A stretch of DNA of 44,641 bases from Acidimicrobiales bacterium (GTDB lineage: Bacteria > Actinomycetota > Acidimicrobiia > Acidimicrobiales > VFJN01). The notes beneath the pieces are model-generated. The model saw only the letters and a list, made by a program, of their open reading frames with translations, did no database searches and was not told the origin of the DNA. Each line of letters opens with the position of its first letter. Within the stretch, counting starts at the first letter, position 1. Positions 10,310 through 25,108 of the stretch are shown piece after piece. Made by a program: the position numbers and the translations under genes. The stretch is taken from NCBI GenBank assembly GCA_030681555.1, contig JAUXRW010000151.1, positions 1 to 44,641 of the forward strand, in the 5' to 3' direction.

Positions 10310-11452
10310 TCAACCGGCCGTCACGGTGGGGCTCCGGAGGCGAAGGGCGACCTCGTTGGCGAGGAGGCGGCCCCGGACGGTGAGCACCACGCGCGTGGGG
10401 TCGTCGGGCGCCGGCTCCACGAGCCCTGCCAGGGCCTCGGCGTCCAGCGCCTCGGCTGGCACGCCCCGGAGCGTGCGCAGCTCGAGCTGCAGCGCCTCGA
10501 GGTCGCGCTCGTCGGCGGGCAGCTTCTCCCCGGCCGCCTCCACGCTGGCGGCCGACGTCACCGCCTCGATGTACCGATCGGGCGTCCGCAGGTTCCAGAA
10601 CCGGCGCCCGTCCCGGTGCGAGTGGGCGGCACATCCGAGCCCCTGGTACTCCCCCATCGTCCAGTACAGGAGGTTGTGGCGGCACTCGTGGCCGGGGCGC
10701 GCCCAGTTCGAGATCTCGTACCACTCCAGCCCAACGCGCCCGAGCCGGTCTGTGGCGGCGAGGTACTTGTCGGCCTGGTCGTCGTCGTCCGGGTGCCGGG
10801 TGGGGTCGGCCGCCAGCGGGGTGCCGCCTTCCACCGTCAGCGCGTAGGCGGAGACGTGCGGCGGATCGAGGGCGATGACGTCGTCGAGCGTGCGGCACCA
10901 GTCATCCAGTGACTCACCGGCCGCGCCGTAGATGACGTCCAGATTGAAGGTTCGCAGCCCAGCGGCCCGCGCGATCTCGACGCACCGCTCGACGTTGGCG
11001 CGGTCGTGGCTGCGGCCGAGCGCAGCGAGCACGTGGGCCGACGTGGACTGGACCCCGAACGACAAGCGGTTGACGCCCGCCGAGAGGTAGGTGTCCACGA
11101 GCTGCGGGGTCACGTCGTCCGGGTTGCACTCGACGGTCACCTCGCAGCCGGCCGCCCGGGGCACGCGGTCGAGCACGGCGACGAGGCCGTCGCCCGGGAC
11201 GAGGGTGGGCGTGCCGCCGCCGACGAACACCGACGTGACCTCGGGCAGCCCGGCGGCCACGAGTCGATCGGCGTCGGCGCGGCACGCCGCGAGGTAGGCG
11301 TCGACGAGGTGGTGCCGGTCGGTCCAGGTCGCGAACGAGCAGTAGTCGCATCGGGCCGAGCAGAACGGCACGTGGACGTAGAGGCCGAAGGGACGCACCG
11401 CACCACTCTGCCGCGCCACTGGCACCACCGCGCCGTCTGGAGGGGACACCAC
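10310..11452 (-). CDS. hemW: HemW-type radical SAM protein (coproporphyrinogen III oxidase-like)
   Basis: A protein of up to 380 residues with the radical-SAM motif CSARCDYC (C31, C35, C38) after PFGLYVHVPF. The GGGTPT loop and a NLDVIYGAAGES segment are also HemN/HemW features. HemW proteins are now regarded as heme chaperones that pass heme to respiratory enzymes rather than as true coproporphyrinogen dehydrogenases. The last gene of the hrcA-dnaJ-rsmE stretch; a lepA/hrcA/dnaJ neighbourhood for hemW is common. The 5' end is uncertain. Several GTG codons precede the conserved core and none has a clear Shine-Dalgarno sequence, so the true start may be up to about 20 codons downstream. Confidence 0.9.
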   Translation of the reverse strand: MVSPPDGAVVPVARQSGAVRPFGLYVHVPFCSARCDYCSFATWTDRHHLVDAYLAACRADADRLVAAGLPEVTSVFVGGGTPTLVPGDGLVAVLDRVPRAAGCEVTVECNPDDVTPQLVDTYLSAGVNRLSFGVQSTSAHVLAALGRSHDRANVERCVEIARAAGLRTFNLDVIYGAAGESLDDWCRTLDDVIALDPPHVSAYALTVEGGTPLAADPTRHPDDDDQADKYLAATDRLGRVGLEWYEISNWARPGHECRHNLLYWTMGEYQGLGCAAHSHRDGRRFWNLRTPDRYIEAVTSAASVEAAGEKLPADERDLEALQLELRTLRGVPAEALDAEALAGLVEPAPDDPTRVVLTVRGRLLANEVALRLRSPTVTAG

Positions 11453-11484
11453 GCGCCGCCGGGGGGCCGCTCACGCCCTCGACC

Positions 11485-11618
11485 TCACGCCGTCGCGAGG
11501 TCGGGGGCGACCTCCAGGATGTAGGCCAGCGCTGTCAGGTCGTCCCGGTGGGATGGCGAGGACCTGGCCGTTGAAGTCGCCGCGCGCCGCTCCGAACACC
11601 GCCGTCGATCGTGCCCAT
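11485..11618 (-). pseudogene. Possible decayed mini-gene with two frameshifts
   Basis: Between rsmE and hemW, an AGGAGG Shine-Dalgarno sequence (11626-11631) lies 7 nt before an ATG at 11618. In that frame only 27 codons are open. Coding-like codon use, with strong third-position G/C, passes first to the frame reading GDFNGQVLAI and then to the frame reading HRDDLTALAYILEVAPDLATA, which stops at 11485. The span of 134 nt fits one 45-residue gene carrying two one-base insertions, or two sequencing errors. Alternatively the 27-residue peptide is real. I do not recognise the product. In GC-rich DNA this signal can also arise by chance. Confidence 0.3.
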
Positions 11619-23165: not shown

Positions 23166-24017
23166 ATGACCTCGCTCTACGCCATGGTCGACCAGCCCGA
23201 CCTCGACGCACCCGTGCTCGTGGTGGTGCTCAAGGGCTGGATCGACGCGGGCCTCGGCGCGAACGGCGCGGCCGACGTGCTGCTCGAGCACCTCGAGCGG
23301 CGCACCATCGCCCGCTTCGACGCCGACGCGCTCCTCGACTGGCGGGCGCGCCGGCCGATCATGCGCCTCGAGGACGGCGTGAACACCCAGCTCGCCTGGG
23401 AGGAGACAGAGCTGTCCTGGGCCAAGGACCTGGCGGGCAACGACGTGCTGCTCCTCCTCGGCAACGAACCCGACCACACCTGGCTGGCCTTCTCGGAGCA
23501 GGTCGTCGACCTCGCCCTCGACCTCGGCTGCCGCATGGTCGTCGGGCTGGCGGCCTATCCGGCGCCGGCGCCCCACACGCGGCCTCCGCTCGTTGCGGCC
23601 GCCGCCTCAGGGCCCGAGCTGGCTGCCGGGCTGGTGCGCTCCACCGTCGAGGTGCCCACCGGGGTGCAGGGGATGATCGAGCGTCGAGCGGCGCTCCGGG
23701 GTCTGCCGGCCCTCGGCCTCTGGGCCCAGGTGCCGCACTACGTCGCCGCGATGCCCTTTCCAGCGGCGAGCCTGGCGCTGTTGCAGACGACGAACACCGT
23801 CGCCGACATCGCCCTGCCCGTGGCCGACCTCGCCCAGCGGGCCGAGGCGAACCGGTCCCGGCTCGATGAGCTCATCGCCCAGAATCCCGAGCACCTGGCC
23901 ATGGTCACGCAGCTGGAGGCGCAGGTCGACCAGAGCGTGGCCAACGCCCAGCTCTCCGACACGTCCGGCGACGAGCTGGCCGCCGAGCTCGAGCGGTACC
24001 TCCGCGAGCAGAGCTGA
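23166..24017 (+). CDS. PAC2 family protein
   Basis: A 283-residue protein of the PAC2 superfamily, named after a proteasome assembly chaperone. It shows the KGWIDAGLGANGAADVLLEHL start and conserved internal GxxA/YPAPAPHTRP and MIERRAALRGLPALGLWAQVPHYVA blocks. Actinobacterial members form trimers. Their role is unsettled, although proteasome-linked and ATP-grasp-linked contexts are known. No proteasome gene is in the window. The last 60 residues are charged and probably helical. Likely co-transcribed with the kinase upstream. Confidence 0.85.
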   Translation: MTSLYAMVDQPDLDAPVLVVVLKGWIDAGLGANGAADVLLEHLERRTIARFDADALLDWRARRPIMRLEDGVNTQLAWEETELSWAKDLAGNDVLLLLGNEPDHTWLAFSEQVVDLALDLGCRMVVGLAAYPAPAPHTRPPLVAAAASGPELAAGLVRSTVEVPTGVQGMIERRAALRGLPALGLWAQVPHYVAAMPFPAASLALLQTTNTVADIALPVADLAQRAEANRSRLDELIAQNPEHLAMVTQLEAQVDQSVANAQLSDTSGDELAAELERYLREQS

Positions 24018-24027
24018 CGCGAGACCG

Positions 24028-24075
24028 CCGGAGGACCGCACTTGCCGGAGGACCGCACTTGACCGTGCGGTCAAG
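24028..24075. promoter_or_regulatory. Operator region of the LLM gene: tandem 17-bp repeat and two overlapping palindromes
   Basis: Two abutting perfect copies of CCGGAGGACCGCACTTG lie at 24028-24044 and 24045-24061. The second runs into an inverted repeat with arms GACCGCAC (24051-24058) and GTGCGGTC (24065-24072), and the 6-nt centre is TTGACC, a -35-like hexamer. A second palindrome, CTTGACCG-TG-CGGTCAAG (24058-24075), overlaps it and has the size of a TetR-family operator. TAGGGT (24085-24090) follows, 7 nt before the ATG. A dedicated repressor is likely, but no TetR gene is in the window. Confidence 0.65.
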
Positions 24076-24084
24076 CGGCTTGTG

Positions 24085-24090
24085 TAGGGT
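24085..24090 (+). promoter_or_regulatory. -10 box for the LLM oxidoreductase gene
   Basis: TAGGGT ends 7 nt before the ATG at 24098 (leaderless geometry). The TTGACC inside the operator is 20 nt upstream, too far for a standard -35 spacing, so the -35 assignment is open. Confidence 0.4.
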
Positions 24091-24097
24091 CGCCGTC

Positions 24098-25108
24098 ATG
24101 AAGATCGACGGGAGCCTCGGTGGAGAGCTGACGAAGGCCGGCACCGCAGCGAGCGAGCTCGAGGAGCGGGGCTACGACGGGCTCTGGACCGCCGAGACGG
24201 CGCACGACCCCTTCTTCCCGCTGCTGCTCGCGTCCCAGTGCACCGAACGGGTGGAGCTGGGCACCGGGATCGCCGTCGCCTTCGCTCGCAGCCCGATGAA
24301 TCTGGCCCAGATCGCCTGGGACCTGCAGGCCGCCTCTGGTGGCCGGTTCCTGCTCGGCCTCGGGAGCCAGATCAAGCCGCACATCACCAAGCGGTTCTCG
24401 ATGCCGTGGTCTCACCCGGCGCCACGGATGCGTGAGCTCGTCCTCGCCATCCGGGCCATCTGGGCGTGCTGGAACGACGGCACGAAGCTCGACTTCCAGG
24501 GCGAGTTCTACACGCACACCCTGATGACGCCGTTCTTCAATCCGGGTCCGAACCCGCACGGCGACGCCAAGATCTTCCTGGCGGGCGTCGGCGAGCGCAT
24601 GACCGAGGTCGCCGGCGAGGTCTGCGACGGGTTCCTGTGCCACGGCTTCACCACCGAGCGCTACCTGCGCGAGGTCACGCTCCCCGCCCTCGAGCGGGGC
24701 GCGGCCAAGGCCGGGCGCGCGGTGACCGACATCGAGATCTCGGGGCCGGCGTTCGTCGTCACGGGCACCAACGAGGAGGAGATGGCGGCGTCGATCGCCG
24801 GCACCAAGCAGCAGATCGCCTTCTACGGCTCCACCCCGGCGTACCGCGGCGTGCTGGAGCTGCACGGCTGGGGTGCGCTCCAGGACGACCTGAACCGCAT
24901 GTCGAAGGAAGGGAAGTGGGCGGAGATGGGCGAGCTCATCGATGACGAGATGCTGGACGCCTTCGCCGTGGTGGCCGAGCCGGAGAAGCTGGCCGACGGG
25001 CTGCACGCCCGGTACGGCGACGTCGTCCAGCGGTTGAGCTTCTACGCCCCCTACGCCAGCGATCCGGCGCGGTGGGCATCGGTGATGGACCAGCTGCAGG
25101 CCGTCTGA
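24098..25108 (+). CDS. Luciferase-like (LLM) oxidoreductase, probably F420-dependent
   Basis: A 336-residue TIM-barrel enzyme of the bacterial luciferase-like class. The typical blocks are AASELEERGYDGLWTAET, ELGTGIAVAFARSPMNLAQIAWDLQAAS, GRFLLGLGSQIKPHI and IFLAGVGERMTEVAGEVCDGFL. These match the TIGR03617-like F420 family common in mycolic-acid and fatty-acid contexts of actinobacteria. The substrate is unknown. The ATG at 24098 fits both the family start (MKIDGSLGG) and the -10 box 7 nt upstream; a longer in-frame ORF from 24059 would begin inside the operator. The gene converges on the acyl-AMP ligase. Confidence 0.87.
   Translation: MKIDGSLGGELTKAGTAASELEERGYDGLWTAETAHDPFFPLLLASQCTERVELGTGIAVAFARSPMNLAQIAWDLQAASGGRFLLGLGSQIKPHITKRFSMPWSHPAPRMRELVLAIRAIWACWNDGTKLDFQGEFYTHTLMTPFFNPGPNPHGDAKIFLAGVGERMTEVAGEVCDGFLCHGFTTERYLREVTLPALERGAAKAGRAVTDIEISGPAFVVTGTNEEEMAASIAGTKQQIAFYGSTPAYRGVLELHGWGALQDDLNRMSKEGKWAEMGELIDDEMLDAFAVVAEPEKLADGLHARYGDVVQRLSFYAPYASDPARWASVMDQLQAV

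Follow-up and report, generated by a model that had tools for sequence, protein, structure and literature searches.

How a compact block of symmetric DNA should be read is the question raised by the upstream region of an F420-dependent LLM class oxidoreductase gene in an Acidimicrobiales genome, where a perfect tandem duplication abuts two overlapping palindromes. A sequence-only reading of the surrounding 44,641-nucleotide contig, the whole of which we refer to as the window, had taken the entire block for a layered operator. We find that palindrome 1 is, by comparison of sequences, very probably a real operator. Our preferred reading, to which we assign a probability of about 0.8, is that it serves a TetR-family protein, TetR-A, which would repress the LLM gene as part of a dispersed lipid regulon, the duplication and palindrome 2 being recent additions that are probably incidental. 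The operator would be well supported and of an ordinary kind, TetR repression in a lipid regulon; as the conserved part, it is now separated from the striking but unconserved repeats around it. Among the matches listed in our searches of the literature on TetR lipid regulons, FdmR, Acidimicrobiales and Microthrix, we found no description of the operator or the regulon. The reading names a specific regulator, an operator and target genes for bacteria known mainly from metagenomes; among the same-genus relatives is a metagenome-assembled genome labelled Candidatus Microthrix parvicella, a lipid-accumulating sludge filament.

Composition of the symmetric patch

The repeat elements are indeed present in the window (Table 1). 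The two copies of the 17-bp unit are 100% identical and begin one base earlier than first described, and the palindromes overlap, both without mismatch. GACCGCAC stands at 24034 and 24051, with its reverse complement at 24065, and the pattern CTTGACCGNNCGGTCAAG, for which 0.25 occurrences with up to three mismatches are expected by chance per window, was found once, with 0 mismatches. The duplication is the only one in the window with a unit of at least 10 nt; ten order-1 Markov shuffles yielded 0, 1, 1, 0, 0, 0, 0, 0, 0 and 0 by the same test.

The assertion that the patch is exceptional in its symmetry did not survive. At 72% G+C, palindromes of such size are ordinary: the window holds 23 perfect inverted repeats (arms of at least 8, loops of at most 8 nt), and the shuffles hold 11 to 31. 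Since the shuffles match the window in this respect, symmetry alone is weak evidence, and we discarded it as an argument in itself. Palindrome 1 is regarded as non-random because it recurs, both in the genome and in its relatives.

The downstream protein passes the curated NCBIfam cut-off of its family (521.4 vs 278.15 bits), and its orthologs begin with MKIDGG or MKVDGG at the position of the ATG at 24098. A longer open reading frame would start with the TTG at 24059, within the operator.

Table 1. Elements of the patch, candidate regulators and copies of the operator in the window's genome (G000), and operator-bearing MoxR-like loci. Plain numbers are window positions; C denotes contigs and L loci.
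Feature	Position	Strand	Remarks
PAC2-family gene, 5' neighbour of the LLM gene	23166..24017	+	Pfam PF09754, 2.3e-52
17-bp perfect tandem duplication	24027..24060 (copies 24027-24043, 24044-24060)	+	unit GCCGGAGGACCGCACTT
Palindrome 2, GACCGCAC-(TTGACC)-GTGCGGTC	24051..24072	no strand	perfect; probably incidental
Palindrome 1 (operator), 18-bp dyad CTTGACCG-TG-CGGTCAAG	24058..24075	no strand	perfect, recurrent
Putative -35 hexamer TTGACC within the operator	24059..24064	+	position conserved; spacer of 20 to the -10
Putative -10 hexamer TAGGGT	24085..24090	+	7 nt 5' of the ATG, leaderless layout
F420-dependent LLM class oxidoreductase, TIGR03617 family	24098..25108	+	NCBIfam 521.4 bits; Pfam PF00296
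TetR-A gene	G000:C122:30290-30895		TetR HTH domain PF00440, 2.6e-15
TetR-B gene	G000:C148:11107-11595 (11062-11595 with the stretch just upstream; L017)		37% identical to TetR-A
Exact site	C42		adjoins truncated AAA ATPase and ProA
Exact site	window		adjoins LLM gene
Exact site	C44		adjoins alpha/beta hydrolase
Exact site	C50		adjoins thiolase and divergent AMP-binding ORF
Exact site	C90		adjoins MBL-fold protein
Exact site	C104		sigma-70-like factor at 126 nt
Exact site	C122		adjoins TetR gene (TetR-A)
One-mismatch site	C17		adjoins acyl-CoA dehydrogenase
One-mismatch site	C18		adjoins acetyl-CoA acetyltransferase-like protein
One-mismatch site	C113		adjoins SDR; others of this class exist
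MoxR-like loci with operator	L020:2-490, L082, L195, L224, L236, L254, L261, L264		

Recurrence of the dyad in the genome and the order

The core of palindrome 1, TTGACCGNNCGGTCAA, occurs in seven exact copies in the 3.28-Mb assembly to which the window belongs, compared with none for the pattern read backwards, which served as a control; with up to two mismatches, the counts are 31 and 14. Computed over 248 Acidimicrobiales genomes, the exact motif is found 246 times in 70 genomes, and the control 11 times, once each in 11 genomes. Some of the one-mismatch sites in the window's genome look incidental, such as those beside a glycosyltransferase/MOSC pair (C38) and inside a gene (C68).

For the relatives, a set of 60 genomes supplied 93 exact sites, 85 of which, from 27 genomes including the window's own, were considered; the eight left-out sites belong to G002, G004 and G006. 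These sites have 160 candidate open reading frames beside them, of which 47 were dropped for length or codon bias and 113 kept. Their Pfam assignments, whose bias towards lipid metabolism is descriptive and stands without a comparison with random genes, comprise acyl-CoA dehydrogenases (12), alpha/beta hydrolases (12), TetR proteins (11), luciferase-like proteins (10), AAA (8), thiolases (6), MBL (6), acyltransferases (5) and AMP-binding proteins (4). Counted by genomes, the largest ortholog clusters are TetR (11, the member from G019 being a 38% paralog), MoxR-like AAA, alpha/beta hydrolase and acyl-CoA dehydrogenase (8 each), and MBL and thiolase (6 each). The MoxR-like AAA ATPase is the most position-constant target: in all eight genomes, its start follows the operator at a distance of 21-22 nt.

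The half-site TTGACC is also that of HcpR, a CRP/FNR-type factor whose delta-proteobacterial sites read TTGACC-NN-GGTCAA (PMC545781), and the dyad could in principle belong to a factor of this kind. We consider this very improbable. The HcpR dyad, at 14 bp, is two bases shorter than the 16 bp found here, where variation is limited to the two central bases and a G/C pair occupies the seventh position, and we therefore rejected an identity of the two operators. Moreover, the recurrent regulatory neighbour of the present motif, in 11 genomes, is a gene for a TetR protein rather than for a member of the CRP/FNR family, and the targets differ as well, being acyl-CoA genes.

Conservation of the patch upstream of LLM orthologs

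Among the 29 LLM orthologs with a readable upstream region (L040, the LLM gene of G024, comes without upstream sequence), seven carry an operator copy that deviates at no more than two positions and lies 21-23 nt from the ATG. Six of them come from the window's family, which is represented by seven genomes, and one from G051. The same-genus genome G001 has a decayed operator in place, with four mismatches, and in 21 of the 29 the operator is absent upstream of the LLM gene. In a set of 80 named orthologous loci, it is found with at most one mismatch in three (L116, L120 and L147, from G002, G006 and G051). Neither the 17-bp duplication nor palindrome 2 occurs in any of these 80 upstream regions, and palindrome 2 has at least five mismatches in all of them. 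Palindrome 1 is hence shared with some of the orthologous regions, and palindrome 2 with none of these 80.

These figures bear directly on a layered operator of the kind proposed initially. In such a reading, palindrome 1 and the duplicated GACCGCAC half-sites would together bind at least two dimers cooperatively, and repression would be tighter in this genome alone. In its favour, the adjoining elements are free of mismatches, and the GACCG at 24051 lies 10 bp, or one helical turn, from that at 24061. Cooperative binding is conceivable here because FadRSa, the nearest relative of TetR-A with a solved structure, binds as one or two dimers depending on the operator flanks (PMC6449355). Against this stands the absence of the arrangement from all 80 named upstream regions. 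The spacing of the half-sites also differs between the two palindromes, and one dimer could therefore not read both alike. Furthermore, GACCG half-sites upstream of the operators at large show no excess: 19 were seen around 84 of the 85 sites (one lies too near a contig end), where about 16 are expected (0.38 per offset, summed over 41 offsets). A dimer-of-dimers operator of the QacR/FadRSa type would have a second overlapping site or a conserved flanking contact; an overlapping site is present in the window but absent from the orthologs. We therefore judge a layered operator improbable. The third half-site exists as a duplicated GACCGCAC in the sequence; as a functional element it was rejected, being unconserved and without any GACCG excess 5' of the operators. 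Palindrome 2 and the duplication are lineage-specific and probably incidental. In the compared genomes, the LLM gene possesses the operator essentially within one family, and the layering is younger still.

CGGTC, the opposite word, exceeds expectation in the operator flanks (40 vs about 16), but it has no fixed offset and the sites are related, and we gave it no weight.

Promoter layout

The suggestion of a leaderless start next to the palindrome was borne out, in that the arrangement with TAGGGT shortly before the ATG recurs in relatives. In the putative leaderless promoter, the -35 region and the spacer fall under the operator, and a short perfect dyad (16-18 bp) overlapping the promoter core is also what TetR-family operators exhibit. 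If transcription starts at the ATG, TTGACC occupies positions -39 to -34. The layout is found in seven LLM relatives, one of them with the decayed operator. When eight LLM upstream regions are aligned, TANNNT, 6-7 nt before the ATG, proves invariant at its T, its A and its last T; AGGG, a possible ribosome site, is not.

This geometry extends to other genes. TANNNT is found 6-8 nt upstream of 22 of the 51 operator-linked starts whose gap measures 12-30 nt, and at 0 of 510 background positions. The distance between the end of the operator and the start is 19-23 nt for 35 of the 113 open reading frames, where a uniform distribution would give 3.5. The spacer of 19-20 nt between TTGACC and the -10 is long for a sigma-70 promoter, which counts against the preferred reading. 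In a second arrangement, the operator directly precedes the -10, with a gap of 13-16. For an operator placed over the -35 and spacer, steric repression is the simplest inference.

TetR-A and its paralog TetR-B as candidate regulators

A search of the genome for further half-site pairs near a TetR-type gene had been proposed as a check, and it was positive: an exact site precedes the gene for TetR-A. Across 25 ortholog loci (L085-L109), an exact site lies within 200 nt upstream in 11, own genome included, and a site with at most two mismatches in 17; the background, which includes real sites, is 27 among 1211 segments, each 180 nt long. Motif and regulator also co-occur by computation: with TetR-A called at E<=1e-40, the motif is found in 53 of the 75 genomes that have the protein and in 17 of the 173 that do not (odds ratio 22; p = 1e-21, a value inflated by kinship among the genomes), so that 22 genomes have TetR-A without the exact motif and 17 the motif without TetR-A. 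The recognition-helix stretch VGKGVFYWYF is invariant in all 22 aligned TetR-A orthologs.

At the same threshold, TetR-A was not found in the same-family genomes G001, G004, G005 and G006, which keep the motif; either another TetR reads it there, or these assemblies are incomplete. A regulon extending beyond the order was rejected: the motif is upstream of TetR-A relatives in none of 12 genomes from two other families of the phylum. In plasmid records, only distant TetRs, below 60% identity, were found.

The retention of the LLM operator by family members without TetR-A raises the alternative that the site is read by the paralog TetR-B or by another TetR. The sites 5' of TetR-B genes read TTGACCCNNGGGTCAA in four of six cases, a dyad near-identical to the operator. 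Yet each half-site differs at one base pair between the two, and the window site is of the A type, carrying G in the seventh position of both half-sites, as are the exact sites that precede TetR-A orthologs. The recognition helices differ likewise, by two residues, that of TetR-B being VAKGLFYWYF in five of five sequences. We consider a reader other than TetR-A unlikely, if somewhat less so than the layered operator. The pair would make a simple test of how TetR specificities diverge.

TetR-A as reader of the site would fit a broader picture, for which we see about even odds: an as yet undescribed lipid-catabolism regulon of the Acidimicrobiales under TetR-A, in which the half-site doubles as a leaderless -35, TetR-B reads a variant with a single base-pair change in each half-site that matches the two-residue change in its helix, and the LLM gene was recruited within one family. 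In the window's genome, the dyad immediately upstream of TetR-B is TTGACCCGCGGGTCAA, and similar sites stand before its relatives in G005, G006 and G051.

Relation to known TetR regulators

The best solved relative of TetR-A is FadRSa (PDB 6el2, 6en8; 5.4e-14 alone, 1.5e-23 by profile), a TetR-family fatty-acid regulator of Sulfolobus acidocaldarius (PMC6449355). It resembles the proposed TetR-A system in the length of its dyad (16 bp), its autoregulation and its lipid genes. Its recognition-helix residues Gly48, Tyr51 and Tyr53 align with the invariant G, Y and Y of TetR-A. Unlike TetR-A, with sites dispersed over the genome, FadRSa is archaeal and, by the abstract of that paper (PMC6449355), binds only four genomic sites.

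Other regulators are more remote. TetR-A matches KstR2 (PDB 4w1u, 4w97), a TetR-family repressor of steroid catabolism, by profile at 2.8e-16, which does not indicate orthology. KstR2 has a short dyad operator, with a half-site different from the present one, and a CoA-thioester ligand. The best NCBIfam match is FasR (NF053731, 9.6e-15), named as an activator, unlike the proposed repressor TetR-A; because its 54.9 bits fall far below the cut-off of 330, membership was rejected, as was that in the Bacillus-type FadR family (NF053878; 35.4 bits against 200).

Proposed mode of action

In the preferred reading, a TetR-A dimer would occupy TTGACCGNNCGGTCAA at 24058-24075 and, by blocking the -35 and spacer, keep RNA polymerase off the LLM oxidoreductase gene, whose transcript would start at or near the ATG, directed by the -10 TAGGGT. 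The same site would control scattered genes of acyl-CoA and lipid catabolism, joined by tetR-A in many relatives. A lipid intermediate of the acyl-CoA type would probably act as inducer. Palindrome 2 and the duplication would be recent local additions without a demonstrated role. The computations establish the motif, its recurrence, its placement with respect to gene starts and its co-occurrence with TetR-A; we infer that TetR-A binds the site, that it represses rather than activates, and what kind of molecule induces it.

Two observations concern the upstream region of tetR-A. In the same-genus genomes G002 and G003 (L086, L087), the full operator is missing before the gene, while TetR-A and other sites are kept, which suggests that these genomes have lost tetR-A autoregulation. 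In the window's genome, a second, imperfect dyad, GTGACCGTACGGTTCC (four mismatches), lies directly 3' of the tetR-A site (G000:C122:30269-30300; about 6270-6301 of L025) and is perhaps a second, weak site.
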